Origin: an uncultured Opitutia bacterium
GTDB lineage: Bacteria; Verrucomicrobiota; Verrucomicrobiia; Opitutales; Opitutaceae
DNA: 62,385 nucleotides
Reading direction: 5' to 3'
Assembly (NCBI GenBank): GCA_903840415.1
Contig: CAIMFY010000038.1
Coordinates: 1-62,385, forward strand
In this document: positions 12,670 through 48,850 of the stretch, piece after piece
Position numbering within the stretch: the first letter of the stretch is position 1
Layout: each line of letters opens with the position of its first letter
Position numbers and translations under genes: made by a program
Notes under the pieces: model-generated
What the model saw: the letters and a program-made list of their open reading frames with translations, nothing else
What the model was told of the DNA's origin: nothing
The model's database searches: none

Positions 12670-12721
12670 GATTGAGTGCCGGAGGAATTTTCGCGTAGCT
12701 GTCTACTCCACCCGCTTAAGT

Positions 12722-14967: not shown

Positions 14968-14985
14968 AAAGGCGGCGCGGGTGTG

Positions 14986-15009: not shown

Positions 15010-15255
15010 GGACGCGCCGCAGCCTACAAATCTATCAGGCTCCCGCCAATAGCGGGAATCTGCTGCCTCAGCGATAATGGCGGCGATGAATTCAACGCCT
15101 CTTTCCATTCGCATGCCGCACCCACTCCGCAGCCGGATCAATTGCATGGCTGGCGGTTCCAATGGCCGAAGCACGGTCACTCCCCAGCGCGCCCACACAT
15201 CCGCGGACGGCACCTCATTTTCACTCTAAACCCTCCGTCAACTACTCGCACTTCC

Positions 15256-16050: not shown

Positions 16051-16080
16051 CCTCCCGGTTCGGGCAGATTGTGATGGCCG

Positions 16081-29228: not shown

Positions 29229-29674
29229 AGCGCCCGCCTCCATCGCCACGCCAATCCCAAAGCGATACCAGAGTCCAGCAAACGAATCAGGTTGGTTGCG
29301 ACTGGGCCTGCCCAGCGCATGGCCCAGCCCAACGCCGGCATCCAGCCCACCGCGAGGAAGAGCAGCCAATACCCCTTGGAACGACCGCCGACGATTGCCG
29401 CCGCCACCATGGCCAAAGCCGCATGTTGGGCGACGTTCAACTCACCTGCGACACCCACAAAGGAAGCCACCCCGCCGGCGAACAGCCAAAAGCCCGACAG
29501 ATCGCGAGTCGTGCGTGCAGCCGAGCCGAAGGCGAGACTCCACGCTAGGGCCGCAACCGCCCCGAGTCGGTCATACGGAGCATGGATCCACGCCGCGATC
29601 AGGTCACCGCTCCACGCTGCACACCAAAGCAGGGCGAGCCAGCCGATGCGTTTGACTCCTGCGACCTCGTTCAT
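29225..29674 (-). CDS. Small membrane protein between exosortase and EpsI-like genes
   Basis: 149 residues from the ATG at 29674, which overlaps the exosortase stop by 4 nt; the longer open frame upstream is a shadow of the exosortase gene. Four to five hydrophobic helices with short loops, ending in a basic RWRRAL tail. I recognise no family. Being sandwiched, with 4-nt overlaps on both sides, between an exosortase and an EpsI-like gene makes it a probable dedicated component of this exosortase system. Confidence 0.7.
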   Translation of the reverse strand: MNEVAGVKRIGWLALLWCAAWSGDLIAAWIHAPYDRLGAVAALAWSLAFGSAARTTRDLSGFWLFAGGVASFVGVAGELNVAQHAALAMVAAAIVGGRSKGYWLLFLAVGWMPALGWAMRWAGPVATNLIRLLDSGIALGLAWRWRRAL

Positions 29675-30432
29675 GTGGCCGTCTCCCACTTGCGTACCCA
29701 AGTCACCCAAGCCGCGGCGAATGCAAACACGCAAACGATCACTGCCAACCCTCCCCAAGTGTGAAACCAACCCGTCGCCGCCTCGCGACCCAAAGTCATG
29801 GCCACCGCGCCCAAGAGTGAGATGCGGAGGGTGTTGGCCAACCAGGCCAGCATCGGCAACAATGCAACACCAGCAATCCACCCACGGGTGGTCTTCAAGC
29901 TATCTGTCATCCACAGGCCGACCACCAAGGTGGCCTGTAGTGTGTCGATACCCGCACACGCCGCATCGACCGCGAGCGGCTGATCTTCGATCCGCAGCCA
30001 CGTGCCTTGTAGTTCCACAGGGAAACCCAGCATATGAAAAATGCCCGCTGATATCCAGGCTCCGCTCAAACGGAAAACCCATCCGAGCACTCCCGCGTCC
30101 GCTGCAAGCCACGGCACGGCGAGGAGGGCCCACAGCGCTAGCCGACGACTTGACGCGGCATCTTTTCCGTTACGGCCGACCACAATGGCTGCGACAATCG
30201 CCGATGGCCACGTCCATCCCATGGACAGTCCAACCGCCGCCACCACCACTGCGCATGCTTCCTTCACGCCGAGACTCAGAGAAGTGCTTCCTCGCATCCG
30301 GTAAAACACCATGCCGGTAGCGACAATGGCCGCAGCCTGTTCCCACACGGCGATACCCGCGCCGGCCGCGGCCAGCCAGCCGCAGCCCAAGATCAAGGAG
30401 AGCACTAACACCCTCTGCCCACGATTGCTCAT
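29671..30432 (-). CDS. Exosortase (archaeosortase/exosortase family)
   Basis: 253 residues, about eight membrane helices. The catalytic triad is visible: Cys159 in VDAACAGIDTLQ, Arg203 in ANTLRISLLG and His224 in GWFHTWGGL. It lacks the C-terminal EpsI domain that some exosortases have fused; an EpsI-like gene is encoded separately two genes on. Family role: transpeptidase-like cleavage of the PEP-CTERM tail and attachment of the target protein to a cell-envelope acceptor. Its probable substrate is encoded at the head of the same operon (32408). The subclass (Xrt letter) cannot be assigned by eye. Confidence 0.88.
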   Translation of the reverse strand: MSNRGQRVLVLSLILGCGWLAAAGAGIAVWEQAAAIVATGMVFYRMRGSTSLSLGVKEACAVVVAAVGLSMGWTWPSAIVAAIVVGRNGKDAASSRRLALWALLAVPWLAADAGVLGWVFRLSGAWISAGIFHMLGFPVELQGTWLRIEDQPLAVDAACAGIDTLQATLVVGLWMTDSLKTTRGWIAGVALLPMLAWLANTLRISLLGAVAMTLGREAATGWFHTWGGLAVIVCVFAFAAAWVTWVRKWETAT

Positions 30433-33323: not shown

Positions 33324-33539
33324 TTTTTTGTTAGGGACGATTACGTAGCACCGGTCCACTTGCTCCGGTAGCAGTCACCAGAGTGACGGGCCGGAAACAC
33401 GAGGACAGGCGTGCGCATGGCATCCCCTTACCACGGCGCATGCCGCACAGCGCTCGGATGCGGCAAGTAACTCGTCCACAAATAAATCAAACTGATCGGC
33501 TAATTTTGCGCCGCATTGGCCGATTGCGCTGCACGACCT

Positions 33540-34895
33540 ATGCAATGCACCTTGAATGCAAGCGCGCCGCGGCTTCCTGTCATCACCCTAGGAGATGAGC
33601 CAGGGACGATCGCAACATCATTGACTGCCGCCGGCTGCAGCGTGCGACGCATGGCTGCCGCCGAGTGGACCAAACTTGCGCAGCGCGCTGAGGGGGTGCC
33701 GGTCGTCGCGGCCTCTGAACTCGACCGTTCCAACTGGCCCTTCCTGCGTGTGCGACTGGCGGAATCAGGCCGGTTTTTCGTCGTGGCGACGCCGCGCGCC
33801 GACTCGGGCACCTGCGTCCGCGCCCTCCGTGACGGGGCGTATGAGGTATTCAGCTCCGACGATTCCCGCGAGCGCATCTACGCCGCCATTGCGCAAACCA
33901 TCGAGGCGGAAAAACTCTGGCAGCGGCTCGCCGGCTCGCCGCAGGCGCATCGGCCGGCGGTCGAATTGCTGGCGGGACGTTCCGAGGCCATGGGCAAGCT
34001 GCGCGATTTGGTCCTGCGCGTCGGTAGCACACGCGCGACCGTGCTCGTCCTGGGCGAGTCCGGCGTTGGCAAGGAGCGCGTCGCAGAGGCGCTGCATGCC
34101 ACCTCCGGCCGGAAGAAGTTTGTCGCGCTGAACTGCGCCGCCATTCCCCGCGACCTCCTCGAGGCGGAGCTTTTTGGCTGCATGCGCGGCGCTTTCACCG
34201 GCGCCACGGAAGACCGGCCCGGCCTAGTCGAACAGGCCGACGGGGGCACGCTTTTCTTCGATGAAGTCGGTGAGATGGACCGCGTCCTTCAGTCCAAGCT
34301 GTTACGGTTTCTCGAAATGCGCCGCGCCCGCCGCGTCGGCGGTCGCTCCGACTACACGGTCGACGTGCGGATCATCGCCGCGACGAACGCCGATCTGCGT
34401 GCTCGTGCCGTCGGCGGGTTTCGCGACGATTTGTATTACCGGCTCGCCGAGATCACCCTTGAGGTGCCACCGCTGCGCACCCACCTCGAGGATATTCCGG
34501 CGCTGTGCAGCCGCTTCCTCGCCGAAGCCACCGAGCGCCATGGCAAGCTGGTGAGCGGCATCGAGCCGGCGTTGATCGAAAAAATGATGCGCTGGTCCTG
34601 GCCCGGCAACGTGCGGGAGTTACGTAACGCGATCGAACGGATGGTCGTGCTGCTGAGTGGCCCCGTGCTTGGTGCCGGAGCTTGGGAGCCGCCGGCACCA
34701 GCAGCGATCGCCGAGCTGCCTGCCGTCGCATCATCGTCCGTAGCGACCGCAGGTCCGCTGAGCCGACGGCAAAAACGCGAACTGGCTTTCAAGTTAATGG
34801 ACGAAAATTCGGACGATTACGCGTGGGTGGCCGCCCAACTCTCCATCCATCCGACAACCCTCTACCGCTGGCGCAAGCAAGCGGGCCGCGCCTGA
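33540..34895 (+). CDS. Sigma-54-dependent activator with degenerate receiver domain
   Basis: 451 residues from the ATG at 33540 (a TTG at 33516 is also open). Residues 10-125 have receiver-like spacing but no acidic pocket and no phospho-acceptor Asp in place, so phosphorylation control is doubtful. The AAA+ domain is complete: Walker A GESGVGKE 172-179, the sigma-54-contacting GAFTGA loop 217-222, Walker B GGTLFFDEV 235-243, and the late WPGNVRELRNA. A Fis-type HTH ends the protein (DYAWVAAQLSIHPTTLYRWRKQ). It stands between the divergent exosortase operon and the downstream glycosyltransferase operon, just as PrsR-like activators sit in PEP-CTERM/EPS loci. I found no clear GG-N10-GC sigma-54 promoter nearby. 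Confidence 0.88.
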   Translation: MQCTLNASAPRLPVITLGDEPGTIATSLTAAGCSVRRMAAAEWTKLAQRAEGVPVVAASELDRSNWPFLRVRLAESGRFFVVATPRADSGTCVRALRDGAYEVFSSDDSRERIYAAIAQTIEAEKLWQRLAGSPQAHRPAVELLAGRSEAMGKLRDLVLRVGSTRATVLVLGESGVGKERVAEALHATSGRKKFVALNCAAIPRDLLEAELFGCMRGAFTGATEDRPGLVEQADGGTLFFDEVGEMDRVLQSKLLRFLEMRRARRVGGRSDYTVDVRIIAATNADLRARAVGGFRDDLYYRLAEITLEVPPLRTHLEDIPALCSRFLAEATERHGKLVSGIEPALIEKMMRWSWPGNVRELRNAIERMVVLLSGPVLGAGAWEPPAPAAIAELPAVASSSVATAGPLSRRQKRELAFKLMDENSDDYAWVAAQLSIHPTTLYRWRKQAGRA

Positions 34896-34910: not shown

Positions 34911-36122
34911 ATGCGCATTCTCGTCATCTATCCATACGCCCCTTTCCCCATCGTTAGCGGCACTTTTCAGCGCACGTATCATCTGCTGCGCGAACTCGCG
35001 CAGCGCAACACGGTCGATTTTTTTGCACTTGATGAAAGCGGCCGGGGTGGGCCCCATGTGGGAGTATTTGAGGAATTCTGCGAGCGAGTGCATCTCCAGA
35101 CTTTTCACCATCCGGTATGGCCCAGGATGTTCGGCTCCCGGCTCGTGCACCCGATGCCCACTACCGTTCGCCACTGGCACGACGCGGCGGCCCACGAGGC
35201 GTTGGCCGCGTTTACCTCTGGGCAAGACTACGACCTGATCCTTTTTTGCGATCTGGTGATGTGGCCCTATGCGAAGCGCCTGCCGCACAACTGCCCGCGG
35301 GTAATGGATCGCAGCCGCGTCGATCTCATGTTTCAAACCGACGAACTGCGCACCCTGCCGCTCAATTCGCAGGAGCGGTTCAATCGGCGCGAAAACCTGT
35401 TCAAGCTCGGTTTTCTCGAGCGCGACGCCGCCCGTCACGTCGCTGCCACGGTTGTCTGCGGCCCAGATGACGAGCGATTCCTGCGCGAGCACGTCGCCGC
35501 GGACGCGAATATCTTCGTTCTGCCGAACGGCTGCGACCCCACCTTCTTCAATCTCGAAACGCATCCACCAATTCCACAGGTAGACCCGACCTGGTTATTT
35601 TGCGGGGCGATGGATTATTCGCCCAACGTCGACGGCATCGGCTGGTATTTCGACACCGTCGATCCACGGGCGCGCTCGGTCCTGCCGTGGCGCCGGGTCA
35701 AGATCGTCGGGAAGAGCCCGACCGCAGGCGTCCGCGCCCAAGCGGGCCTGCCGGGCGTGACCGTCACCGGTGAAGTGCCGGACGTGCGACCGCATTACCA
35801 ATCAAGCATGTTCCAAATTGTGCCGCTGCGTATCGGCGGCGGCACCCGCCTGAAGATTGTCGAATCTCTCAGCATAGGTTGCCCTGTTATCTCGACAACC
35901 ATCGGCGCGCAGGGGCTCGAACTGCGTCACGGCGAACATCTGCTGCTTGCTGACACCCCACTCGAGTTCGCCACCGCCGCGGTGCGACTGGCAGGTGACT
36001 CCGGGCTCCGCCAACGCCTGCGCGTCGCCGGCCGTCAGCAAGTGCTCGAGCTCTATGGCTGGCCCCAACTCGGGGCGCGCCTCCACGACTACTACGAATC
36101 CTTGGTTTCCGTCCACGCATGA
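34911..36122 (+). CDS. GT4-family glycosyltransferase (PEP-CTERM/EpsH-locus type)
   Basis: 403 residues, 15 nt after the activator gene. It begins MRILVIYPYAPFPIVSGTFQRTY, the acceptor loop form typical of sugar transferases in exosortase-linked EPS loci. The C-terminal half shows WLFCGAMDYSPNVDGIGWYF, VTGEVPDVRPHY and PLRIGGGTRLKIVESLSIGCPVIST, the conserved donor-side motif of this GT4 subgroup with the E of KIVE. Overlaps the next gene by 4 nt. Confidence 0.88.
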   Translation: MRILVIYPYAPFPIVSGTFQRTYHLLRELAQRNTVDFFALDESGRGGPHVGVFEEFCERVHLQTFHHPVWPRMFGSRLVHPMPTTVRHWHDAAAHEALAAFTSGQDYDLILFCDLVMWPYAKRLPHNCPRVMDRSRVDLMFQTDELRTLPLNSQERFNRRENLFKLGFLERDAARHVAATVVCGPDDERFLREHVAADANIFVLPNGCDPTFFNLETHPPIPQVDPTWLFCGAMDYSPNVDGIGWYFDTVDPRARSVLPWRRVKIVGKSPTAGVRAQAGLPGVTVTGEVPDVRPHYQSSMFQIVPLRIGGGTRLKIVESLSIGCPVISTTIGAQGLELRHGEHLLLADTPLEFATAAVRLAGDSGLRQRLRVAGRQQVLELYGWPQLGARLHDYYESLVSVHA

Positions 36123-37561
36123 ATATTGCCACTCCTCCTCCCCGCAGCGCTGTGATCCTCGGCGTGCCGTTTCACGACCTCACACTCGATGAAAGCATAA
36201 CCCGAATCGGCCACGTAATCGCTCAGCGCACGCCCCGCTATCTCGCGACCGCCAATCTCGACTTCGCCATGCAGGCCAGCCGTGACGTTGAATTGCAGCG
36301 GATTTTGCTGGAAGCAGAATACGTGCTTTGCGATGGCACGCCGCTCGTCTGGGCTTCCCGCTGGCTTGGCACTCCGCTGCGCGAACGCGTCGCTGGCTCG
36401 GACCTCGTGCCCCGCCTTGCTGCCGAAGCAGAACGAAACAATTGGCGCATCTTCATTCTTGGCGGCACTCCCGACAGTCTGGAAAGCGCACTCGCCAACC
36501 TCCGGGCGCGCCATCCCAAACTGGCAGTGGATGGTTTTTCACCGGCATTGGCGCCTCTCTTGGAACTGAACCACCTAGAGATTTCTGAAAGAATCCGCGC
36601 CGCCCGTCCTGACATTCTCTTGGTTGCCTTTGGGTGTCCGAAGCAGGAGAAATGGATTTACATGCACCACGGCCGGCTTGGCGTGCCGGTGAGCATTGGG
36701 GTCGGCGCGACGATCGATTTTCTTGCCGGCAAATACCGCCGCGCCCCGCGGTGGATGCAGCGCACCGGCTCCGAATGGATTTTCCGACTGATTCAGGAGC
36801 CGCGCCGGTTGTTCAACCGTTACATGCTTGATCTGGTCTTCTTTGTCCGCGCGCTGCGGCGCGAACGGCGGATTCTGCGCAAGCGAGATGTGCCATTGGT
36901 CGTCCCGCCCCGCCCAACCAATGCTCCGTCATCGATCACCGTGCACCGCTGGTCGGGCGACATCGACGCAGCGGCGATCCACAGCGGCGGTTTCGCGCCG
37001 GTTCCACCGATGCTTCCTGGAGAAGCTCTCGCACTGGACTTGTCCGGCGTTACCTTCATGGACAGCGCTGGTGTCGGGCAGCTCGTTGGCCTTTACCGGG
37101 CGCGCGTCCGCAGCGGTGCGGGCATGGTGCTGATCAATCCGTCTGAGCCGGTTAGAACTCTGCTCACAGCGCTGAAACTTGATCGGATTATCCCGACCGC
37201 GAATGAACCCAGTGAGGTTCCGGCCGTGCTCGGTCTGCGGCGCGTCGGCCCAGCCAATACGGTGGATCAGCAGACAGTGTCGGTGAAATTTATTGGCGAA
37301 CTAACCGCCCCGCGCGTGCCCGGCCACCTCAACTGGCTCAACGATGCTTGGGCCGCCAAGCCGGCAGCATGCCACCTTCAGCTGGATCTTTCCCAGATCG
37401 GCTTCATCGACAGTTCGGGTCTTGGCCTGCTCGTCCACGCGCACAAACTCGCGAAGCAACGTGCAGGTGCCAATCTTCGAATCCGCGGCGCTGGCTCGAA
37501 TGTGCGCAATGTCACCCAGCTGGCACGGCTCGACACGATGTTTCAGTTCGAAGATGCGTGA
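36119..37561 (+). CDS. GT26 (WecG/TagA/CpsF) glycosyltransferase fused to two STAS domains
   Basis: 480 residues, about twice the usual GT26 length. The enzyme part (10-250) has all family marks: LATANLDFA, CDGTPLV (D72), FGCPKQEKW 171-179, GVGATIDFLAG 194-204 and the basic RRAPRWMQ...EWIFRL membrane-binding tail. After a linker, residues 272-362 form a STAS domain with DSAG at 315-318, and residues 385-480 a second STAS domain with DSSG at 431-434. Each carries the Ser that an RsbW-like kinase phosphorylates in anti-sigma antagonists. The fusion joins a lipid-linked sugar transferase to partner-switching modules. The same island encodes a lone STAS protein and an RsbW/RsbU fusion, so direct phospho-control of this enzyme is a reasonable inference. 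Confidence 0.88.
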   Translation: MNIATPPPRSAVILGVPFHDLTLDESITRIGHVIAQRTPRYLATANLDFAMQASRDVELQRILLEAEYVLCDGTPLVWASRWLGTPLRERVAGSDLVPRLAAEAERNNWRIFILGGTPDSLESALANLRARHPKLAVDGFSPALAPLLELNHLEISERIRAARPDILLVAFGCPKQEKWIYMHHGRLGVPVSIGVGATIDFLAGKYRRAPRWMQRTGSEWIFRLIQEPRRLFNRYMLDLVFFVRALRRERRILRKRDVPLVVPPRPTNAPSSITVHRWSGDIDAAAIHSGGFAPVPPMLPGEALALDLSGVTFMDSAGVGQLVGLYRARVRSGAGMVLINPSEPVRTLLTALKLDRIIPTANEPSEVPAVLGLRRVGPANTVDQQTVSVKFIGELTAPRVPGHLNWLNDAWAAKPAACHLQLDLSQIGFIDSSGLGLLVHAHKLAKQRAGANLRIRGAGSNVRNVTQLARLDTMFQFEDA

Positions 37562-38704: not shown

Positions 38705-40651
38705 ATGTCTTCGAGTCTCACCGTCGTTCCTCCCGCTCCGCTGGCTCCGGTGCAACCCACTGCCGCGCCTGAGGTTCAGCTACCGTTCGATCCGCGGCGG
38801 CTGCTCGGAGGGTTTATTGCACGCAAGCGTTGGATCGTGCTCGCAGCGGTGGTGGGACTGTTAGCTGGTGCAGGACTCGGCCTGTTCCGGTCGGAAACCC
38901 GATACGAAGTTTCGGTTCAGCTGATGAAACGCGAGATCCCGAGTGGCTTCCGCGCCAGCGATTTTGGCGAGGCTTTCAAGCCAAGGGTGATTAACAATGC
39001 GACGCTGATCGGGATCGCCCTTTCGGAAACCGTGCTCACCCGAGTAGTGAACAAGGCGCATCCGGCGGTCTCGCTCGCTTTATTGCGCCGATCGGTGGAG
39101 GCCAATGAGCAAAAGGGAACCGATTTTGTCATGTTGACGGTCTCGGGCTACTCAAGTCCCGCGGACACGGTCGCGTTGGCCAATCTCTGGGGCCAGGAAA
39201 TCGTTGAGTTTTCACGCGAGTTGCAGGTTCGCGAAAGTCGCGAAGTGCGGACGTATGTGCAAAAGCAGATTGAACTGGCGGATGCCGATATTCGGCGCCT
39301 GAACCGGGAAATGATCGATGTGTCGCAGCGGGAGGGAGTGGTCGACGCCGATCGCCAAATAGAGGCGTATCTCCGCTTGCTTAACGAGCTAGATCTTAAG
39401 ATCCAAGCACTGCACAGCAATTTGTCTTCCTCGGAACTCCAATTGCGGAGCATGGAAGCCGAACTCGATCACCTGATTCCGCTCAACGAGCGAATCGATC
39501 AGCTTCAGCGTGAAATTATAAACGCCCAGACAACTTCCGGCGAGGCCAGCACAGTCACCCAGGATCTACGGCTACAAATGACGAAATTGCAGGCGGATTA
39601 TCGTCGCCAGCAGAAAAAAGAGTATAACCCGACTTCGGCTTCATCGACCACCCTCGGAACGACCCTATTCCTGCAGGTAATGCAGGCGCGATCTCAGCGC
39701 GAGAGCGGCCTGCGGGAACTGCCAGAACTGGAACGTATGCGTGCGGATGTTCAGCAAAAGCTCGCCGCGATGCCCGAGAAAGCGGCGCATTTTGCCCAGT
39801 TACAGCAACAGCGCGCGGCCCTAGAAGCGCCTCGGCACATCATGACTGCCCGCCTAAGCGAGGCGCAACATTTCGAGGAAAATGCGTCGGGGTATTTTCA
39901 AGTCTTTACGCACGCCAACGTCGGCGAAGTGGCCGTGCGGCCGTTCTGGCTTAAGCTGCTCGTTTTTGGGGCCGGAGGGCTCGCGGTTGCCACCGCCCTC
40001 GGCACGGTCGGTGCAATCGGAGCAGAGTTGATTGACAGCCGACTTCGCACCTCCGCCGAGGCCAGCCGCCTTTACCGCAGCCCGGTTTGGTCAAACCTAA
40101 GCCGGCACGACGGGCGTTCAGCTTGGCGCGGAGCAGTCGAACGTCTCTGGCTGCAATGGATTTCGACCAGGGATGGTTTCGCCGCCCCCTTGGCGATGTG
40201 GAGCGCTATTCCTGGGCCGACTGAGGAACAATTCTGGGAAATAGTCATTGATGAGGCCAGACGCCTTCTTGACGGCATGTTAATCGTCGATGTCGGCGAG
40301 GAGTGGAGTCCGCAACTTGCTTCGTTGCCGATTGCCTCTGGCGAACCGATCTTGGGCGTGCAATCGCTAAGAGTCGATCCCCACTCGATCTCAGTCGCTG
40401 ATGCAGAGCGGCTGGTTGATCGCCTTGCCGCCATAGGCCAGACCACTTTGGTCTGCGTGCGCTTTGCTGGTGCGGTGCGCGAACCGGTTACTACGATTGC
40501 CCAAGCCTGCGCCCCGGCGCTCGTATTTGTTAACGCGGACATTGCACGACTCGACTTCTGGGAGAAGCATGCCAACCTGCTTCGTTCTGCAGTTAAGGCG
40601 CCCGCCGGCTTGATCTTGGCAGACGAGTCCGAGCTATTTCACGCGATTTGA
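38705..40651 (+). CDS. Wzz/GumC-like polysaccharide co-polymerase with a degenerate C-terminal domain
   Basis: 648 residues from the ATG at 38705. Membrane helix 1 lies at 42-61 and helix 2 at about 414-440. Between them is a large periplasmic domain with long coiled coils (190-300, 330-390), as in PCP-2 chain-length regulators. After helix 2 about 200 cytoplasmic residues follow the position of a BY-kinase domain. They keep strand-like segments (MLIVDVGEEW, TTLVCVRFAG, ALVFVNAD) but have no Walker A or Tyr cluster, so kinase activity is lost. Likely role: control of chain length together with the Wzy-like enzyme. Last gene of the plus operon beginning at 33540 or 34911. Confidence 0.82.
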   Translation: MSSSLTVVPPAPLAPVQPTAAPEVQLPFDPRRLLGGFIARKRWIVLAAVVGLLAGAGLGLFRSETRYEVSVQLMKREIPSGFRASDFGEAFKPRVINNATLIGIALSETVLTRVVNKAHPAVSLALLRRSVEANEQKGTDFVMLTVSGYSSPADTVALANLWGQEIVEFSRELQVRESREVRTYVQKQIELADADIRRLNREMIDVSQREGVVDADRQIEAYLRLLNELDLKIQALHSNLSSSELQLRSMEAELDHLIPLNERIDQLQREIINAQTTSGEASTVTQDLRLQMTKLQADYRRQQKKEYNPTSASSTTLGTTLFLQVMQARSQRESGLRELPELERMRADVQQKLAAMPEKAAHFAQLQQQRAALEAPRHIMTARLSEAQHFEENASGYFQVFTHANVGEVAVRPFWLKLLVFGAGGLAVATALGTVGAIGAELIDSRLRTSAEASRLYRSPVWSNLSRHDGRSAWRGAVERLWLQWISTRDGFAAPLAMWSAIPGPTEEQFWEIVIDEARRLLDGMLIVDVGEEWSPQLASLPIASGEPILGVQSLRVDPHSISVADAERLVDRLAAIGQTTLVCVRFAGAVREPVTTIAQACAPALVFVNADIARLDFWEKHANLLRSAVKAPAGLILADESELFHAI

Positions 40652-40675
40652 AGCCAATCGCACTCGCGGTCTTCG

Positions 40676-41794
40676 CTAGTTGTAAAGGCCCCACCAGCGA
40701 CGATAGGAAATCCGCCATGAGCGGCGACTTTCGCTGACGCATCTCGCCGCGGCAGCTTCGCTGAGGTCCACACTGTGCGCGGCCACCAATGCTCTTTGCA
40801 GCGCCGCGCGCGGGTAGTCGAGCCAGCCGGGCAAGGCCAAGCCTCGTCGCATCAAATCGCGCACATGCAAAGAAAAGTTCCTGAGCCGCGACGAATGGGG
40901 AAAGAGGCGGCCGCTAAGCGCCAGATAGTCAGCCCCATTCTTGATCGCCTTCCCGAGCCGGCGGGATTCAAGCCAAAGGAAAACTTCCAGCCAAACCGCG
41001 GTCAGCTCGCGATTCTCATCGGCAAGTGCCGCCGCGCCCGGATGCAGGTGCCGGGGCTGCAATTTGAACTGCACACCTTGCGTGTGCCACTCCTGCAGTT
41101 GAGCAAAAAATGGCGGCTTAAAGAAATTTGCTGCCGCGATCCGCCGGGAGCGTTCAAGGCAAGAGCCGTCGTGCAGTCCCGCCGCGGCCAGCACGGCGTC
41201 CGCGAGGGCCAGTCGTGCTTTCGCATGGTTACGCTCAACGAAGCCATCCGGATCGTCGGGTTGCTCCTCTAATCGCCAGCGCGCGAACAACAGGCCGCTG
41301 CCGCGATTGAAAAGGAGCCGGACTGGCTCGCTCAGCGGAATCTGCGTGGGGTGCCGTAAGGTGGCTGGCGCATTCGAAAGTATCTTCGGGTCACCCCACA
41401 CAAGTTGGTGGCCTTGCAATAAATCGAAGTAAAACATCGTCGGCACCGCGGTCGCAAAAACGCCGGCGGGTAGCTGTTTAAACTCCACGTCGATGCCCAA
41501 CTCGCGCGTTCCTTGGTGCTCCCAGCGGTGGCACCAAGCAGTCAGGGGAGTGGCGATCGCCCGGCTCGTGGAAAAGATGAAAAACTCGAGGTCGTTGTAG
41601 AGTTGTGCTTCACCAGATTTGGTCGCGCGAAAGACACCGCCTTCGCCGCGGCCATATCCGCCTCCGAGCACCAGCGCAGCAACCCCTTGGCTGAATGATT
41701 GTGCACCTAAGTCCGCGGCAAGGCGTGCTAGAAACCGTTCGAGTTTCGCCGCGAGCGTCGGCTCGGCCTCGAGAAAATAACGGGACCCGCTCAC
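40676..41794 (-). CDS. Predicted nucleotidyltransferase-fold protein
   Basis: 372 residues, soluble. The N-terminal region carries LVLGGGYGRGEGGV followed after about 20 residues by YNDLEFFIF. This reproduces the GS/GG-x-G...DxD/E core of minimal nucleotidyltransferases, with a late acidic strand IDVEFK as third acid. The rest is helical and unrecognised. Possible roles are NMP transfer to a protein, sugar or small molecule. It lies 6 nt downstream of the lone STAS gene on the same strand, so the two probably form an operon and may act in the same regulatory switch. Confidence 0.62.
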   Translation of the reverse strand: MSGSRYFLEAEPTLAAKLERFLARLAADLGAQSFSQGVAALVLGGGYGRGEGGVFRATKSGEAQLYNDLEFFIFSTSRAIATPLTAWCHRWEHQGTRELGIDVEFKQLPAGVFATAVPTMFYFDLLQGHQLVWGDPKILSNAPATLRHPTQIPLSEPVRLLFNRGSGLLFARWRLEEQPDDPDGFVERNHAKARLALADAVLAAAGLHDGSCLERSRRIAAANFFKPPFFAQLQEWHTQGVQFKLQPRHLHPGAAALADENRELTAVWLEVFLWLESRRLGKAIKNGADYLALSGRLFPHSSRLRNFSLHVRDLMRRGLALPGWLDYPRAALQRALVAAHSVDLSEAAAARCVSESRRSWRISYRRWWGLYN

Positions 41795-41800
41795 CGCGGG

Positions 41801-42109
41801 TTAAGAATTTATTTCGAACACCCGGTGGAGTCGCAGGAGTTCGAGGACGGCGCGCACTTCTGGCTGCACCTTTGCCAGTTGCACGACGGCACCGGGCGTC
41901 AGCCATTTGTAGAGCGTCAACAACACGCCGACACCGGAGCTGTCGATGAATTCTACAGAGCCAAGATCGATCACCACGCGCAGGACGCCGTCAAACGCCA
42001 ACGCGCGTAGGTTTTGTTTCAGGTGCTGCGAGGCCGAAGCATCGAGCTGACTAATTGTGAAGGTGAGGTTAACGGTGGCGCCTTCGCGCCGATAGGCGGG
42101 TGCATTCAT
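41801..42109 (-). CDS. STAS-domain anti-sigma-factor-antagonist-like protein (SpoIIAA/RsbV/SypA type)
   Basis: 102 residues, a single STAS domain. VVIDLGSVEFIDSSGVGVLL contains DSSG at 56-59, the phosphorylation loop of RsbV/SpoIIAA proteins; length and helix pattern are standard. Partners encoded nearby are the RsbW-GAF-RsbU fusion (45226) and the STAS domains fused to GT26 (36119). Only 2 nt separate its start from the start of the divergent gene at 42112, so the two promoters must overlap the genes. In Vibrio fischeri the comparable STAS protein SypA is switched by SypE to control biofilm polysaccharide. Confidence 0.88.
   Translation of the reverse strand: MNAPAYRREGATVNLTFTISQLDASASQHLKQNLRALAFDGVLRVVIDLGSVEFIDSSGVGVLLTLYKWLTPGAVVQLAKVQPEVRAVLELLRLHRVFEINS
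42069..42096 (+). promoter_or_regulatory. Sigma-28-like promoter, site D
   Basis: Plus strand: TTAAC (42069-42073), 14-nt spacer, GCCGATAGG (42088-42096), ending 15 nt before the ATG at 42112, the same distance as at site C. It lies inside the first codons of the divergent STAS gene. GCCGATA is the closest of the four to the FliA -10 GCCGATAA. Confidence 0.45.
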
Positions 42110-42111
42110 AA

Positions 42112-43356
42112 ATGATACCCTTTACGACCCAAACGCCCGTTTCGTTACCACAGCCGCTGAAACTTCTCTACGTCCACGAGGCGTTCGGCAGCCTAGGCGG
42201 TGCCGAAGCCAACGTCCTCATCACCGCCACCGAGATGCGGAAGCGTGGGCACATTGTCGGCCTCTGGACGCAGCGATCCACCGGCCGCGGCGAGGAATCG
42301 TGGACGAAGACTTTTGGCGACAACATCTGGCATCTTGAGCAGGCCGACCTCGCGGTCGTCCGCGCGCAGTTCGCGCCGGATGTCGTCTACGTACACAAAT
42401 GGGATCATCTTTCGACACTCGCGGCGTTGGGTGAGAGCGGACTGCCGCTTATCCGTATGATCCACGATCATGATCTCTATTGCCTGCGTAGCTACCGCTA
42501 CAACGTCTTCACGCGCGAGGTGTGTCACCGGAAAGCCTCTGCGTTTTGCGTGTTCCCCTGCCTCGCGACGATCAAGCGCAACCGCGACGGCGGTTTTCCG
42601 CTCAAGTGGGTGAGCTATCCGGACAAGCGCCGCGAGATGGAACTCAACCACCGCTTCCACCGTTTTCTCGTCGTCACCGAATATATGCGGCACGAACTCG
42701 AACTGAACGGCTTTGATCCGACGCGAATTGAAACCTTCCCGCCGGTGCCGCGTGCTGCCGATGCCGTCCGTTCGACGTTCTCCGATCGCAATCTCCTCGT
42801 CTACGCCGGCCAGATCATCCGCGGCAAGGGCGTCGACATGCTGCTAAGCTCGCTGGTCCATGTGAAGAGTAAGTTTGAACTCATCATTCTTGGCGATGGC
42901 AACGACCGGGCCAATTGCGAGAAACTCGCCCGCAAGCTTGGCCTCGCCGATCGCGTGCGGTTCGCCGGCTTCGTGCCTCAGGCCGAGCTCAAGTCCTTCT
43001 ATCAGGAAGCCTCAGCCGTCCTCATTTCCTCGGTGTGGCCAGAACCGATTGCGACCATCGGTCTCGAAGTGATGCGCCACGGTTTGCCGGTGGTGGCGTT
43101 CGATGCTGGCGGCATCAGCGACTGGCTAATCGACGGGCACAACGGCCGGCTCGTGAAGTGGTGCGACACGCAGGCCTATGCCGGCGCGATCGACGAACTG
43201 CTGAAGGACAAGACCAAGGCCCGCGGTTGGGGCGGAGCCGGGCTGGCCCTTGTGACAGAGCGCTACGACTTCGCGCGTTACATCAGCAACCTCGAGGCGC
43301 TCTTTCATCGGGTGAACGCCGAGGTAAACGCTAAAACCCCGGTCGAAGTCTCATGA
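42112..43356 (+). CDS. GT4-family glycosyltransferase
   Basis: 414 residues. Starts with KLLYVHEAFGSLGGAEANV, the GT4 acceptor-loop form. A Cys/His-rich insertion at about 125-160 (DHDLYCLRSYRYN...CHRKASAFCVFPC) is seen in a GT4 subgroup where it may bind zinc. Donor domain: LLVYAGQIIRGKGVDMLL, FVPQAELKSFYQEAS, SSVWPEPIATIGLEVMRHGLPVVAF. First gene of the operon that continues with the initiating transferase and the phosphatase fusion; overlaps the next gene by 4 nt. Confidence 0.88.
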   Translation: MIPFTTQTPVSLPQPLKLLYVHEAFGSLGGAEANVLITATEMRKRGHIVGLWTQRSTGRGEESWTKTFGDNIWHLEQADLAVVRAQFAPDVVYVHKWDHLSTLAALGESGLPLIRMIHDHDLYCLRSYRYNVFTREVCHRKASAFCVFPCLATIKRNRDGGFPLKWVSYPDKRREMELNHRFHRFLVVTEYMRHELELNGFDPTRIETFPPVPRAADAVRSTFSDRNLLVYAGQIIRGKGVDMLLSSLVHVKSKFELIILGDGNDRANCEKLARKLGLADRVRFAGFVPQAELKSFYQEASAVLISSVWPEPIATIGLEVMRHGLPVVAFDAGGISDWLIDGHNGRLVKWCDTQAYAGAIDELLKDKTKARGWGGAGLALVTERYDFARYISNLEALFHRVNAEVNAKTPVEVS

Positions 43357-44069
43357 ACGACCAGGAACTGATCAATTACTGGGTGGAGGCCGGGACCCCG
43401 TTGGGACGGGCCCGGCGCCAGCTTCGGCAACGCGGCAAGCGCGCACTGTGGTTCGCGACCGTGAACAGCACGCTTATTCTGAAGCGTGCGATCGATGTTG
43501 CCGCTTCGGCTCTGGCGCTCCTCGTGCTTACGCCACTCTTTGTCGCCACTGCAATAGCGATCAAGCTTGAGGACCGCGGCCCCATCTTCTTCCGCCAGCA
43601 GCGTGTCGGCCTGCGCGGGCGCCTCTTCGGCATGTGGAAATTTCGCTCGATGTTCATCAACGCCGAGAAGTTGAAAGACCAACTCGTGCAGCAGAACGAA
43701 ATGCAGGGAGGCGTGACTTTTAAGATAAAGAACGATCCCCGCGTGACCCGTGTCGGTCGTTTTATTAGGAAATATTCGATCGATGAATTACCGCAGTTCT
43801 GGAATGTCCTTCGCGGTGACATGTCGCTCGTCGGACCGCGGCCGCCGGTGCCGCGCGAGGTTGCGCTCTATTCACCAGAGGACCGGCAGCGGCTGCTCGT
43901 GGTGCCTGGCCTGACCTGTTTCTGGCAGGTCGGCGGTCGCAGTTCGATCGACTTCGCCGGGCAGGTCCAACTCGACGTCGAATACATCCGCTCGTCGAGC
44001 GTCTGGCTTGATGTAAAGCTGCTCGTGCGGACAGTTCCGGCGGTTCTCTTTGGGAAAGGCGCCTTTTGA
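43353..44069 (+). CDS. Initiating undecaprenyl-phosphate sugar phosphotransferase (bacterial sugar transferase)
   Basis: 238 residues, a monotopic phosphoglycosyl transferase (PF02397). A re-entrant hydrophobic helix spans 43-70. The catalytic pair is D144-E145 in SIDELPQFWNVL; MWKFRSM at 94-100 and GDMSLVGPRPP at 155-165 are textbook motifs, followed by PGLTCFWQVGGR. It transfers a sugar-1-phosphate to undecaprenyl phosphate at the inner membrane, the first step of the Wzy pathway whose other parts lie in this island. Overlaps both neighbours by 4 nt. Confidence 0.92.
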   Translation: MNDQELINYWVEAGTPLGRARRQLRQRGKRALWFATVNSTLILKRAIDVAASALALLVLTPLFVATAIAIKLEDRGPIFFRQQRVGLRGRLFGMWKFRSMFINAEKLKDQLVQQNEMQGGVTFKIKNDPRVTRVGRFIRKYSIDELPQFWNVLRGDMSLVGPRPPVPREVALYSPEDRQRLLVVPGLTCFWQVGGRSSIDFAGQVQLDVEYIRSSSVWLDVKLLVRTVPAVLFGKGAF

Positions 44070-45229
44070 AAATTGAAACCCTTGTGCTCGCGGCCCCCGA
44101 CTTTGCCACGCTCGATCTGGTGGCCAGAAGGAAAGAGCCATCGGTCCTCTGGCCTGTCGGCGGACAGTCGCTCGCTGCCCACTGGCTGGATCACGCAGTG
44201 CGGCTTGGTTGCAAGCGTGTCGTGATCCACGCCGCGGATCGACCGGCAGAAGTGCGCGCGGCATTGGGTGGCGGCGGTTATTGGTCGCTTGAACTGGAAG
44301 TTTCTTCGCAGAGAGCTCCAGCCGATGCCATCCCGATGTTTGGGCTGCCGAACGATCCTAAGCCGGTTGCGCCAACCACTCCGCTTGAACTCCTCGGCTG
44401 GTGGTTTGACCTGAACTGCCGCTGGCTCGCTGGCCGTAACATTAATGCTGTCTCGATCGACCAGTGCCGCGAAGCGGGCGGCTGGATCGGGCCTCGGGTG
44501 AAGATTTCTGCAAGCGCCAAACTAGTCTCACCGTATTGGATCGGCGCTGGCGCTGAAATCGGACCCGAGTGTCGCATTGGACCCAATGCCTTCATCGGAT
44601 CGGGCAGCGTGCTCGAAAGCGATGTTCACGTGGAAAATTCTTTCGTCCTGGCACGCACGTTTCTCGGTAGTCACATTGACGTGCGCACAAAGATCATCGA
44701 CGGGAACACGCTCCTTGACCTGGTCGCCGGCACCCGGGTCGAACTGCGGGACAACTTCGTCGCCAGCGCCCTCACATCTGGCGCCGGCCGTGTGGACTGG
44801 CGTGAGCGCGTGCTCGCGGCCATCCTTTGGGTGCCTGCCATCCTGCTTGCACTGGGATGTGGTCGCCCTGTCACAGATATGGTCCGGCTACCCGGCGGCG
44901 CGCTGCTTGCCCTCTCGACCCGCTCTCGTGGCCCTCTGCTCGCGCGCCGTGCCAGCTGGCTCCGGCACGTTATCGCCGGCCACATGCGGCTCGTCGGCGT
45001 ATTGCCTCGCGCGATAGTTCCCAATCTTCCGCCGGACAGCCGATCATTGCTCGAGGAATCTACGCCCGGCATGTTTGCATTGTCGGACTTGCACGGTATT
45101 CACACGACGGCCGACACGGAAGAATCCGTGCACGCGGTTTACCAGGCTGCGGTGCCCGCAGCAAACGCCGAGGTGTGGAGAAATCTCTTTCGACTCTGCC
45201 GCTTGCGGCCAGCAACCTCCAATGCATGA
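44066..45229 (+). CDS. Left-handed beta-helix protein with degenerate sugar-transferase-like C-terminus
   Basis: 387 residues. The N-terminal 130 residues resemble a nucleotidyltransferase fold (TLVLAAPDFAT, PVGGQSLAAHWLDHAVRLGCKRVVIH). Residues 140-235 carry hexapeptide turns of a left-handed beta-helix (WIGAGAEIGPECRIGPNAFIG). A hydrophobic helix at 249-266 follows. The C-terminal part has VIAGHMRLVGVLPRA at 302-316 and TPGMFALSD at 334-342, which parallel LRGDMSLVGPRPP and PGLTCFWQV of the preceding enzyme. It lacks the catalytic DE pair and keeps no clear active site. It may be a non-catalytic partner of the initiating transferase. Overlaps both neighbours by 4 nt. Confidence 0.72.
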   Translation: MKIETLVLAAPDFATLDLVARRKEPSVLWPVGGQSLAAHWLDHAVRLGCKRVVIHAADRPAEVRAALGGGGYWSLELEVSSQRAPADAIPMFGLPNDPKPVAPTTPLELLGWWFDLNCRWLAGRNINAVSIDQCREAGGWIGPRVKISASAKLVSPYWIGAGAEIGPECRIGPNAFIGSGSVLESDVHVENSFVLARTFLGSHIDVRTKIIDGNTLLDLVAGTRVELRDNFVASALTSGAGRVDWRERVLAAILWVPAILLALGCGRPVTDMVRLPGGALLALSTRSRGPLLARRASWLRHVIAGHMRLVGVLPRAIVPNLPPDSRSLLEESTPGMFALSDLHGIHTTADTEESVHAVYQAAVPAANAEVWRNLFRLCRLRPATSNA

Positions 45230-46929
45230 GCGCCCTGCTCGAGACTTACACACTGGAAATGCCGGCTGACCTTACCGCAAGCCGCGAGGCCATCGGGGCC
45301 GTGCTGGCCTGGCTCCAACTTCAGGGACATGCGCTGGAGAATACCAGAGCCTGGCGCCTACCGATCACCGAGGCTGTCACCAATGCGATCCTGCACGGTT
45401 GCCGGGACCACGCCAGTGCCCGTGTTACGATCATGGCCCGCGTCGGCGCCGAATGCACGGAGGTGCTTGTTCGCGACCCAGGCTTTTACCAAGCCTCGCC
45501 TGAGGCCAGCCGCCTGCATGATGACCCGCTGGCCGACCATGGGCGCGGCGGATTTTTGATCGCGCAGGGCACCGACAGCTTCGAACACCTCAACGAGGCC
45601 CGCGGGCATACGCTATTGCTGCGTTGGAACCAGCGACCCCGCACGCGGCTGGGCCTCGCTGCTACCTCCGCGGCCGAACAAACCCTTGACCAACTGGCCG
45701 CACAATTGGGCGACGCCTACGAGGCAATTACAGCCTACACGGAGTTCGCCAGCCTGCTTGCAACCACGAGCGACTTCGGCGAATTGCTCGTCCACGCGCG
45801 GCGGCGGCTCGCGGAGTCCATTGAACATGAATCGCTGCTGCTGCGGTTCTTCGAGGACGACGCCTTAGTGCTCACCACACCGGCGCCCGGTTTTCCAATT
45901 TCGATTCCCCTCTCCTCCTCCGCGCTTGAGGCTCGGGTCGGCACCGCGCGCAACTTTGCTGCGCTAGCCTCGCCCGCGGAAATTCCCGCCGCTGATCCGC
46001 TGAGTGCCGCCGCTGGCCCGGTCGTGATTGTCGCCGTGGGTTGTCCGAAAAAGACCCGGGGCACGCTTGCCCTGGTGAGGAAGAAAGACGCGCCGGCGTT
46101 TACGGCTGGCCAGATCGCTTTCGTGCGATCGGTGGCCGATTTCCTCGGCACCGCCCAGAGCCTTTCGGAATCATGGCACCAGCGCGCGGAGCAAGTCCGG
46201 CTGGAGCAGGAGCTGCAACTGGCCGCCCGCATCCAGCAGCAACTTTTCCCCCAGTCATCGCCGCCAATATCCGGTTGGCGCGTCACGGGGAGTTGTCAGC
46301 CATCGCTTGCCATGGGGGGCGACTATTTTGACTGGATCGTGCGGGGTGACGGTTCGTGTCTTGTGCTTGTCGCGGACGTGATGGGCAAGGGTATGCCCGC
46401 AGCCATGGTGGCCACCATGCTGCGGAGCACGTGGCGGGCGCTCGCCACACGGACCGACAGCCCCAGCGCGCTCCTCACGGAACTCAACGCCCAGCTTGCA
46501 CGGGATCTAGCCACCCTCGAAGTGTTCATCACGGCCGTGCTGGTCCGACTATCTCCGAACGACTCCCGCGTGCAGTATGCGAATGCCGGCCACTGTGCGT
46601 TGTTGCAGAGCCTAGGGGCGGACCGTGATTATTACCACCACGCCTGCGGTGGCCCTCCACTCGGAATCAATCCCGATGCGCACTTTGATGCGACCGAGAT
46701 CACGATGACCCGAGGCAATTCGCTCTTTGCTTTTACAGATGGCTGTTACGAAATCGACCGAAAGCGCGGGTCTACTGCCGGCCTGCAACGATTGGAACGG
46801 GAGCTGCGCAGCGCCAGCGAAGGCGACAGCGGCGACGTGGTCGCGACCGTGCTTCGCCAGCTGCGAGGTCAGGCGGCGTATGAACTTCCTGACGATTGCA
46901 CGCTCGTCTCCATGCACTATCTCTCATGA
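45226..46929 (+). CDS. RsbW-like kinase / GAF / PP2C (RsbU-like) phosphatase fusion
   Basis: 567 residues from the ATG at 45226 (ATGA overlap; the longer open frame is a shadow). Domain 1 (1-135) is an anti-sigma-type HATPase: ITEAVTNAILHG with E49/N53, RDPGF with D84, and HGRGGFLI. Domain 2 (165-315) is GAF-like. A coiled segment with QLAARIQQQLFP leads to a PPM/SpoIIE phosphatase (345-567): GGDYFDW, ADVMGKGMPAAM, YANAGH, FTDGCYE and DDCTLV, all metal-site acids present. One protein thus holds both the kinase that would phosphorylate a STAS Ser and the phosphatase that would remove it, as in SypE. Candidate substrates are the STAS protein at 41801 and the GT26-STAS enzyme. Confidence 0.9.
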   Translation: MSALLETYTLEMPADLTASREAIGAVLAWLQLQGHALENTRAWRLPITEAVTNAILHGCRDHASARVTIMARVGAECTEVLVRDPGFYQASPEASRLHDDPLADHGRGGFLIAQGTDSFEHLNEARGHTLLLRWNQRPRTRLGLAATSAAEQTLDQLAAQLGDAYEAITAYTEFASLLATTSDFGELLVHARRRLAESIEHESLLLRFFEDDALVLTTPAPGFPISIPLSSSALEARVGTARNFAALASPAEIPAADPLSAAAGPVVIVAVGCPKKTRGTLALVRKKDAPAFTAGQIAFVRSVADFLGTAQSLSESWHQRAEQVRLEQELQLAARIQQQLFPQSSPPISGWRVTGSCQPSLAMGGDYFDWIVRGDGSCLVLVADVMGKGMPAAMVATMLRSTWRALATRTDSPSALLTELNAQLARDLATLEVFITAVLVRLSPNDSRVQYANAGHCALLQSLGADRDYYHHACGGPPLGINPDAHFDATEITMTRGNSLFAFTDGCYEIDRKRGSTAGLQRLERELRSASEGDSGDVVATVLRQLRGQAAYELPDDCTLVSMHYLS

Positions 46930-47306
46930 AACCCGCTGCTCTGAAAAAAATCCTGATCGTGGAAGACGATCTTGCGATTCGTCGGCTGCTAGAAGTGTGC
47001 CTGCGATCCTTGCCTGCGGCGCAGATTGCCGTCGGCGAAGGCCAGGCCGCCCTCGACCTTCTGCGGCGCGAAAAGGTCGATCTTGTGGTGACCGACCTGA
47101 TGATGGCTGGCACTGGCGGTTTCGACATCGTCCGGGCGATGCGCGCGGACTCCGCGCTGCATGAAATCCCCGTCGTGCTTCTTTCCTGCCTGGGCAGACC
47201 TTCGCTTCCGACGGAAGCAAAGGAGGCCGGGGTGCAGGAATTTTTCATGAAGCCGTTCAGTCCATCCCAATTACTCGGCGCGGCCCGCCGGCTTCTGGCC
47301 CTTTGA
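46926..47306 (+). CDS. Single-domain response regulator (CheY-like)
   Basis: 126 residues from the ATG at 46926 (4-nt overlap). Acidic pair ED/D at 13-15, phospho-acceptor D57 in VVTDLMMAGTGG, Ser in LLSCLG and K in FFMKPFSP: an intact receiver with no output domain. In SypE a receiver sits between the kinase and phosphatase domains; here it is a separate gene directly after the fusion, so it may gate the two activities in trans. The cognate histidine kinase is unknown; kinases without a partner regulator lie in the second signalling block. Confidence 0.87.
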   Translation: MKPAALKKILIVEDDLAIRRLLEVCLRSLPAAQIAVGEGQAALDLLRREKVDLVVTDLMMAGTGGFDIVRAMRADSALHEIPVVLLSCLGRPSLPTEAKEAGVQEFFMKPFSPSQLLGAARRLLAL

Positions 47307-48451
47307 AACCGCGGCCACTCAACCTCTTCGTCTTTGCTGACGCGCTCGGCTGGCAGATTGCGCAACGCCGTCAGTTTCTTGTGGAGCTTCTTCCGCATAG
47401 GTCCGAGGTGGAGACCCTGCTGGGCTACTCCTGCACCTGCGACCCGACCATCCTGACAGGTGCGGAGCCAGATGAACACGGACATTTTTCCTTTTTTGTC
47501 TTCGATCCCAAGGGGTCCCCCTTTGGGTGGGCGCGTCACTTGGGCTGGCTGCCGGACTCGATCGCCGCGCACCACCGAGTGCGTAATCGCGTGAGCCAGT
47601 TCACTGGGCGTCGGCTTGGTTACACCGGATATTTCCAACTCTACAGCGTTCCATTCGCTAGGTTGCCGTGGCTGGACTACACTGAGAAACGCGACCTCTA
47701 CGAGCCCGGTGGAATTATCGGCGGGCAGGAAACCATCTTTGCGCAATGGTCGCGGGCCGGCCTGCCTTGGACGCGATCCGACTGGCGACGGAGCGACGCC
47801 GAGAATGTCGAGCACCTCCGAACTGAAATTCGGCGCGGGGAAATTCGCGCGGCGTATTTGTTCACCGCTGGACTCGACGCCATCATGCACCGTCACGGCA
47901 CAAAACATCCCGCGGTTGACGCTGCCTTCGACCGCTTCGAAGGCTGGCTGCGCGGATTATGGGAACTCGGCCACAGCCACTACTCCGAAGTCCGGCTCCA
48001 CGTGTTCAGCGACCACGGAATGACTGACACGGTCGCTTCGAGCCGAATGATGCTGGAGTTTGAAGCGCTCGGCCTGAGCTACGGTCGCGATTATGCTGCC
48101 GTGTGGGATTCAACGATGGTCCGGTTTTGGTTTCCAGGCGGAGCGACCGTGCGTCGCGAAGTGGAAGCTTGGCTCGGCGCCCGCCCGGAAAGCGGTCATA
48201 TCATCGCCGATGATCAACTAGCGCGCTGGCGCTGCCTCTTTCCCGATCGGCGATACGGCGAACTCTTCTACCTCCTCTCCAATGGGACGATCCTTGCTCC
48301 CTCTTACATGAATCGCGGTTTTGTCCACGGCATGCACGGATACTCGCCTGACGAGCCGGACAGTGCGGCGTGCCTGTTGAGCAGTCATGTGCCAACCATG
48401 CCCGTAACCAAACTTTCGGGTCTACATAGACTACTTCGGCAAGCCGAGTAG
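47303..48451 (+). CDS. Alkaline-phosphatase-superfamily protein (type I phosphodiesterase-like), TTG start
   Basis: 382 residues; the TTG overlaps the receiver-gene stop by 4 nt (TTGA). Metal-site motifs of the superfamily are visible: D13 in FVFADALGW, a nucleophile region SCTCDPTILTG at 43-53, FSDHGMTD about residue 235, and HGMHGYSPD near the end. No signal peptide, so probably cytoplasmic. Related phosphodiesterases and phosphatases hydrolyse nucleotides, phospholipid head groups or sugar phosphates; the substrate here is unknown. It closes the EPS and partner-switch operon, followed by 400 nt of transposon debris. Confidence 0.7.
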   Translation: MKPRPLNLFVFADALGWQIAQRRQFLVELLPHRSEVETLLGYSCTCDPTILTGAEPDEHGHFSFFVFDPKGSPFGWARHLGWLPDSIAAHHRVRNRVSQFTGRRLGYTGYFQLYSVPFARLPWLDYTEKRDLYEPGGIIGGQETIFAQWSRAGLPWTRSDWRRSDAENVEHLRTEIRRGEIRAAYLFTAGLDAIMHRHGTKHPAVDAAFDRFEGWLRGLWELGHSHYSEVRLHVFSDHGMTDTVASSRMMLEFEALGLSYGRDYAAVWDSTMVRFWFPGGATVRREVEAWLGARPESGHIIADDQLARWRCLFPDRRYGELFYLLSNGTILAPSYMNRGFVHGMHGYSPDEPDSAACLLSSHVPTMPVTKLSGLHRLLRQAE

Positions 48452-48850
48452 TCAGTTTTGCCGGCACCTATGCGCCGCAGCCTCGATAGCTCCTGAGGTC
48501 CTGTTGCATAAATAGCGTAATTTTCTGTTAACCCGCCGTTCAGTCCGAAGCGAGGAGGGCGAGGCACGTGGGAGTAGCCCAAGTGTTAAGCAGATGGGCC
48601 CGCAGTAGTGCTTCGTGGGCCTGATTGCCTTTTGTGGCGGGAGCGGTGGCGTTGGCCGAAGGCTGCTGTGAGTCGGTGCCTGGTGGACTCGGCCAGGGAA
48701 CGACGGCCGTAATTTACGGCCCGCTTCCAGTCTGGCAGACCGAGAAAGCGGACTTCCTCGATCGTTTGGTTGCGGGTCTGCCAGTCCATTCCGTCATGGA
48801 GGACTGCGCGTTTACCTGGCGGGGAGAGAAGCCGGGCTTGGTGGTGTTTA

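Follow-up and report, generated by a model that had tools for sequence, protein, structure and literature searches.

The window analysed here is a stretch of 62,385 nucleotides (nt) from an uncultured Opitutia bacterium of the Opitutaceae, Verrucomicrobiota (assembly GCA_903840415.1, contig CAIMFY010000038.1, positions 1 to 62,385). Three of its genes, encoding a lone STAS protein, a kinase/phosphatase fusion and a receiver, form a putative partner switch, and this trio sits in an exosortase/PEP-CTERM polysaccharide locus. Protein switches of this kind are best known as regulators of transcription. The window also encodes a GT26 glycosyltransferase that carries STAS domains. Our main new result is that GT26-STAS enzymes mostly occur in genomes with one of two types of switch. 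The genes concerned are as follows (L and G numbers here and below are our handles for loci and genomes).

41801..42109, minus strand: lone STAS protein (Pfam PF01740, 4.5e-14), predicted phospho-acceptor S57 in a D-S-S-G motif
45226..46929, plus strand: predicted bifunctional STAS kinase/phosphatase fusion (Pfam HATPase_c_2, 1.5e-13; SpoIIE, 5.9e-41)
46926..47306, plus strand: stand-alone receiver (Pfam PF00072, 6.5e-21)
36119..37561, plus strand: glycosyltransferase of the GT26 family (WecG/TagA/CpsF) with two STAS domains at its C-terminal end, the output proposed for the switch (Pfam; co-occurrence with the switch)
42112..43356, plus strand: GT4-type glycosyltransferase, gene 1 of the overlapping chain (Pfam Glycos_transf_1)
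43353..44069, plus strand: initiating sugar transferase (Bac_transf; Pfam, 3.1e-68)
44066..45229, plus strand: hexapeptide-repeat protein (Pfam Hexapep), adjoining the switch in both switch types
47303..48451, plus strand: type I phosphodiesterase/nucleotide pyrophosphatase-like protein, final gene of the chain (Pfam, 6.8e-13), in an equivalent position in L013–L016

A chain of six genes runs along the plus strand between 42112 and 48451, each gene sharing 4 nt with the next, which makes five overlaps in a row. It begins with the GT4-type and the initiating sugar transferase, continues with the hexapeptide protein, the fusion and the receiver, and ends with the phosphodiesterase-like protein. 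The lone STAS gene diverges from this chain. Its start codon lies 2 nt from that of the GT4-type transferase (window 42107–42114), which leaves no room for a promoter in between. A promoter scan of 40600–48600 gave one promoter-like site (1.1 expected) and 12 terminator-like sites (7.6 expected) and was not used. By Pfam, the island contains an exosortase, a DUF3485/EpsI protein, a PEP-CTERM protein, a sigma-54 activator, several glycosyltransferases and a MatE protein; an O-antigen-ligase match is weak, below the Pfam cut-off. A first-pass annotation of this DNA had placed the trio in an exopolysaccharide gene island, with the fusion and receiver overlapping by 4 nt. Translations and Pfam agree with its coordinates and domains for all three proteins. 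The overlap is real and is one of the five, and the island is an exosortase/PEP-CTERM locus, which that annotation did not state.

The trio recurs in distant relatives above chance: it is conserved in seven named contigs and, in part, in 22 other genomes. Of 98 loci from a scan of named genomes, the best 80 were retained. Among these 80, seven (L013–L019) match nearly the whole fusion, on contigs labelled as Verrucomicrobia-group (five), ‘Bacteroidetes’ (one) and ‘bacterium’ (one), and the nearest named relative is L013, from an Opitutae bacterium, at 55 percent identity. When 387 genomes of the phylum were searched with a profile, 23 of them, counting the window's own, had a near-full-length fusion match, a class limit chosen after the tables were seen. 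The window's order (STAS, transferases, fusion, receiver, phosphodiesterase) is repeated in L013–L016; in L017–L019 the STAS gene directly precedes the fusion. Gene order around the switch is kept in several relatives whose fusions are only about 27–55 percent identical to that of the window. The receiver adjoins the fusion in 19 of 29 related loci; 16 of the 29 have an initiating transferase, and 17 have at least one polysaccharide gene of the kind seen in the window. A lone STAS gene lies on the fusion's contig in 28 of the 29: 24 are within about 10 kb (17 of 22 profile-found loci and all seven named contigs) and four are at 15–35 kb. Those four are near or overlap a GT26-STAS gene; in G158 the lone STAS frame overlaps the GT26-STAS frame. 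The lone STAS protein is likely the cognate partner of the fusion. As a separate observation, L029:9477-11221 has a STAS gene beside a kinase/phosphatase fusion without the middle domain.

Other families have a second type of switch. Around the GT26-STAS gene in L230, L233 and L234 there is a protein of the receiver (REC)-PP2C-HATPase type with a lone STAS protein, an initiating transferase and a hexapeptide protein; Pfam on L234 gives the domain order as REC-PP2C-HATPase. A profile of the three loci has 32 near-full-length matches below 1e-100 among the 387 genomes, a limit that was set after seeing the tables and that omits a partial match in G132. The three loci are not independent in this count, since the model was built from them and they lie beside GT26-STAS genes. 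Among 14 second-type loci read, 13 have a lone STAS gene, 12 an initiating transferase and 12 both; all 14 come from genomes with GT26-STAS as well, which makes them a selected sample. That other families fuse a receiver to PP2C-HATPase supports the view that the window's stand-alone receiver belongs with its fusion. Hybrid histidine kinases adjoin the switch or sit one gene off in L183, L256 and L266. None of the 23 genomes with the window type and the 32 with the second type has both; taking this mutual exclusion as a sign that the two are equivalent was dropped, because chance alone gives 0.13.

A profile of three GT26-STAS proteins matched 94 genomes, and the match reaches into the STAS region in 33 (the class limit, chosen once the tables had been seen, was a match that extends to position 354 of 485). 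Either type of switch is present in 31 of these 33 genomes vs 24 of the 354 others (Fisher, 2e-28); the 33 comprise nine with the window-type fusion, 22 with the second type and two exceptions, G122 and G192. By genus, the switch is found in 18 of 20 GT26-STAS genera vs 17 of 178 (5e-14). Genomes with a GT26 match lacking STAS have a switch in 5 of 61 cases. Each of the three genome-wide profile counts scored 3 to 4 candidates per genome, so misses are possible. Five GT26 matches that appeared to lack STAS, all from switch genomes (G029, G157, G303, G126 and G321), were inspected: G029 and G157 do carry STAS, G303 is cut by a contig end and two show none. Adding G029 and G157 gives 33/35 vs 22/352. 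We keep the uninspected counts (31/33 and 24/354) as primary because only switch-positive genomes were inspected.

In eight of the nine genomes with both GT26-STAS and the window-type fusion, the two lie on one contig within 33 kb; in the ninth, G314, they are on two short contigs. In second-type genomes the enzyme and the switch are often distant, as in the single-contig genomes G383 (3.2 Mb apart) and G081 (0.54 Mb apart). The first-pass annotation had counted three possible STAS substrates, including a GT26-STAS fusion, and had proposed a co-occurrence analysis. The count was right, as Pfam finds two STAS domains in the GT26 protein (36119–37561), and the analysis shows that enzyme and switch associate. 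The strength of the co-occurrence makes the enzyme look like an output of the switch rather than a third generic substrate. Excerpts of the open-access literature searched describe no pairing of STAS with a glycosyltransferase, WecG or exosortase.

The lone STAS motif is strictly conserved. Positions D56, S57 and G59 are invariant in 28 of 28 aligned partners of the window-type fusion, and the D-S-x-G core never changes. Across both switch types the motif is invariant in 42 of 42 aligned proteins, a count that omits the L274 STAS protein and includes one second-type STAS protein (L236) with no fusion beside it. We take S57 to be the counterpart of the serine phosphorylated in SpoIIAA. The GT26 STAS domains vary more: the second keeps a serine in 20 of 21 two-STAS enzymes, and the first has one in 27 of 30 aligned.

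In the fusion, Pfam places HATPase_c_2 at residues 12–134 and SpoIIE/PP2C at residues 375–564, with a GAF-like middle at about 148–340. Kinase-domain residues E49, N53, D84, G106 and G108 and phosphatase-domain residues D366, D384, D505, D556 and D557 are unchanged in 30 of 30 aligned fusions, while D369 and G86 vary; these counts omit L029, which has kinase and phosphatase but no middle domain. Their roles in binding ATP or metal are those described for these families. An AlphaFold model (8 sequences; mean predicted local distance difference test score, pLDDT, 80; predicted template modelling score 0.53) shows an alpha/beta domain flanked by helices 148–199 and a long helix 294–340. Its PP2C region structurally matches the phosphatase domains of Rv1364c (Z 26.1, best), RssB and SiaA (Z 25.8).

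The first-pass annotation had labelled the middle domain GAF. This label is plausible, from Pfam matches in relatives (E up to 0.5 in six of eight aligned members, best 3.3e-5) and the predicted fold order, but it is weak for the window protein alone (E 0.13). Structure searches gave no confirmation of the GAF domain because the PP2C domain filled the result lists. A hidden receiver in the middle domain was also considered; it was ruled out, with a Response_reg match at E up to 0.5 in none of the eight members. The receiver is, as stated earlier, a separate protein; it is encoded by the next gene.

Single STAS proteins tied to polysaccharide are known elsewhere. The system named in the first-pass annotation, SypE/SypA of Vibrio fischeri, resembles the window switch in having an N-terminal serine kinase and a C-terminal serine phosphatase in one protein, a single-domain STAS partner with a conserved serine and a polysaccharide (syp) locus (PMC10120452, PMC4517449). 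SypE has a central receiver (PMC10120452), whereas the window fusion is GAF-like there and the receiver is the next gene. The window locus also differs in its STAS-fused GT26 enzyme and belongs to another phylum; SypE was compared by description only. The likeness thus stands for the order of the catalytic domains, the polysaccharide locus, the likely STAS partner with its serine and the presence of a receiver, and fails at the central receiver, which the fusion lacks. By analogy the window switch would work like SypE/SypA while falling outside that group on this one feature.

Other families of the phylum use the REC-PP2C-HATPase order of HsbR in a similar setting (L234 and its relatives), which the first-pass annotation did not mention. 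HsbR/HsbA of Pseudomonas aeruginosa and CrsR/CrsA of Shewanella oneidensis share receiver, PP2C and kinase functions and a single STAS protein with the window (PMC6482189, PMC8457831), and HsbA also acts on an enzyme (PMC8457831). They differ from the window in its HATPase-GAF-PP2C fusion with a separate receiver, in its polysaccharide linkage and in that no sigma partner was found for it. SiaABCD of P. aeruginosa switches an enzyme directly through a STAS-like protein, whose state depends on a phosphatase and a kinase (PMC8457831), and the window PP2C fold matches SiaA; however, SiaD is a diguanylate cyclase, SiaC is a DUF1987 protein, and kinase SiaB and phosphatase SiaA are separate proteins. 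HmpUWV of Nostoc punctiforme consists of separate PP2C, RsbW and STAS proteins. It serves hormogonium motility and polysaccharide and is another polysaccharide-tied partner switch whose STAS output is described as unknown (PMC8256260).

RsbUVW and Rv1364c likewise combine PP2C and RsbW modules with a STAS protein, and Rv1364c is the best structural match for the PP2C part. In Rv1364c the phosphatase precedes the kinase, unlike in the window fusion. Unlike RsbUVW, the switch belongs to a genome without a SigB/F/G-class sigma factor over the cut-off.

This last point comes from a genome-wide check for a cognate sigma factor, which the first-pass annotation had also proposed. The TIGR02980 model (SigB/F/G) had 15 matches in the whole genome and none over its 234-bit cut-off, the best being 136.5 at the RpoD-like gene; we call this cut-off strict, because it is passed in only 1 of 14 control genomes. 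Sigma region 3 occurs in four genes; one is RpoD-like, another RpoD/RpoS-like, and the remaining two belong to FliA/WhiG, with one of these two at 14983–16050 of the window. Searching all of them but the RpoD-like one against 4948 open reading frames of the loci revealed no clear sigma factor beside the relatives, although extracytoplasmic function sigmas could escape such a search. The sole non-self match was weak, at the edge of L013 (E 2.7e-4).

Other partner-switch genes occur in the genome. Contig 96 (L189, about 8870–16058) has genes for a REC-PP2C, an RsbW and a STAS protein, after which come those for a CheA-type kinase and a methyl-accepting chemotaxis protein with a hemerythrin domain. 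It was considered as a SigB-type operon; given these neighbours it looks like a different system, apparently a partner switch tied to a chemosensory system. Contig 14 has PP2C and a STAS gene and no HATPase_c_2 match. Three other PP2C loci were read, on contigs 96, 14 and 17, and all of them lack polysaccharide genes like those of the window. Contig 47 has a fourth PP2C match, which is partial.

From these comparisons we lean slightly towards a SypE-like partner switch dedicated to polysaccharide, with the GT26-STAS enzyme as its probable output. In this reading the fusion's HATPase domain would phosphorylate the lone STAS protein on S57 and the PP2C domain would remove the phosphate, as the retained residues suggest. 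Which activity wins may depend both on the receiver, once a histidine kinase has phosphorylated it, and on a signal at the GAF-like domain, either a ligand or a conformational change; a role of the receiver in setting this balance is supported by its fusion to the enzyme in other families. The unphosphorylated STAS protein would act on the machinery of lipid-linked sugar assembly, not on a sigma factor. Its most likely target, judging from co-occurrence and gene order, would be the tail of the GT26 enzyme that carries the STAS domains; going by its family, this enzyme should add an early sugar after the initiating transferase. In its fuller form, which we put forward tentatively as somewhat short of an even chance, the phospho-state of the lone STAS protein would gate the synthesis of lipid-linked repeat units through the GT26 STAS domains. 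That fuller form includes, with no greater assurance for the two together, two unlike kinase/phosphatase fusions filling the same role in different families of one phylum.

There is precedent for STAS-type switches acting directly on an enzyme in SiaC-SiaD, HsbA-HsbD and BgrV-BgrR, and such direct action is known for diguanylate cyclases (PMC8457831). SypA and HmpV are single STAS proteins with a partner described as unknown (PMC8256260, PMC10120452, PMC4517449). The genomes now supply a named candidate STAS target, a STAS-bearing glycosyltransferase found mostly where the switch occurs. If the proposal is true, the cell would adjust its polysaccharide output post-translationally and early in assembly, and such a sugar transferase would become a candidate for the partner on which SypA-like proteins act.

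The 4-nt overlaps favour the main reading, as they tie the fusion to the chain of the initiating transferase and to the receiver. Several observations weigh against it. The co-occurrence of GT26-STAS and switch clusters by family, 14 of the 23 genomes with a window-type fusion have no detected GT26-STAS, and 12 of 20 GT26-STAS loci (L224–L229, L231, L232, L235–L237 and L240) have no kinase/phosphatase gene in the stretch read. The first GT26 STAS domain lacks the aspartate in most second-type families, and L171 lacks the serine in both GT26 STAS domains. No receiver was found beside the fusion in 10 of 29 related loci. Finally, 12 of 29 window-type loci show no homologue of the window's polysaccharide genes in the stretch fetched, which suggests that the module also works elsewhere. 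These last 12 loci would also fit a stress-type switch of a generic sort, brought into the island by chance and without a part in polysaccharide. We think this the least probable explanation of all, as gene order is kept despite the low identity of the fusions and the second type repeats the setting.

A stronger competitor, though still unlikely, is a CrsR/HsbR-like mechanism, in which the HATPase domain would sequester a sigma factor encoded elsewhere, the STAS protein would free it and the effect on polysaccharide would be indirect. HsbR and CrsR, which combine receiver, PP2C and kinase domains, both bind RpoS (PMC6482189). The genome does encode an RpoD/RpoS-like sigma of 361 residues as well as the two FliA/WhiG members, and the candidates would be the RpoS/RpoD-like sigma on contig 102 or one of the latter two. 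However, the six-gene chain has no sigma gene, the three sigma queries, which extracytoplasmic function sigmas could escape, gave one weak match beside relatives, and the association with GT26-STAS would be left unexplained. In another alternative the GT26 STAS domains would be the main phospho-substrates and the lone STAS protein a decoy or adaptor, and the serines kept in most of these domains are consistent with this. We consider it improbable, since the D-S-x-G motif is invariant in the lone STAS proteins and not in the GT26 domains, and the neighbour of the switch in many genomes is the lone STAS gene rather than GT26-STAS. The fusion might also be a phosphatase only, with another RsbW, such as that of contig 96, as the kinase. 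Its G1 box is indeed shortened or varied (D-P-G-F in the window), and position 86 varies. Against this, the N-box residues E49 and N53, together with D84, G106 and G108, do not vary among the aligned fusions, and the contig 96 RsbW has its own neighbours (REC-PP2C, STAS, CheA-type kinase and chemotaxis protein), which makes a phosphatase-only fusion very unlikely.

Further features of the locus are listed here.

40676..41794, minus strand: protein with a predicted nucleotidyltransferase fold, encoded downstream of the lone STAS gene and in its orientation
33516..34895, plus strand: sigma-54 activator related to the PEP-CTERM regulator PrsR
29671..30432, minus strand: exosortase (PF09721, 9.2e-17), marking the exosortase-linked polysaccharide island

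The protein at 40676–41794 has no match in Pfam or NCBIfam. Its model has a pLDDT of 85, and Foldseek matches to aminoglycoside nucleotidyltransferases are weak (best 8.7e-4). The gene adjoins the STAS gene also in L013–L016, L180 and L241–L243, and its product is a possible further target of the STAS protein. In the sigma-54 activator, Pfam detects no receiver in the N-terminal part, whose length would allow a degenerate one.

Elsewhere in the window, 10934–16050 encodes in a row a haem-NO-binding protein, a pair of histidine kinases, of which one carries HNOBA and the other a receiver and PAS, then a LuxR-type regulator and the FliA/WhiG sigma (14983–16050), which has about 120 extra N-terminal residues. 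A transposase (DDE_Tnp_ISAZ013) lies at 48904–50136, shortly past the six-gene chain.

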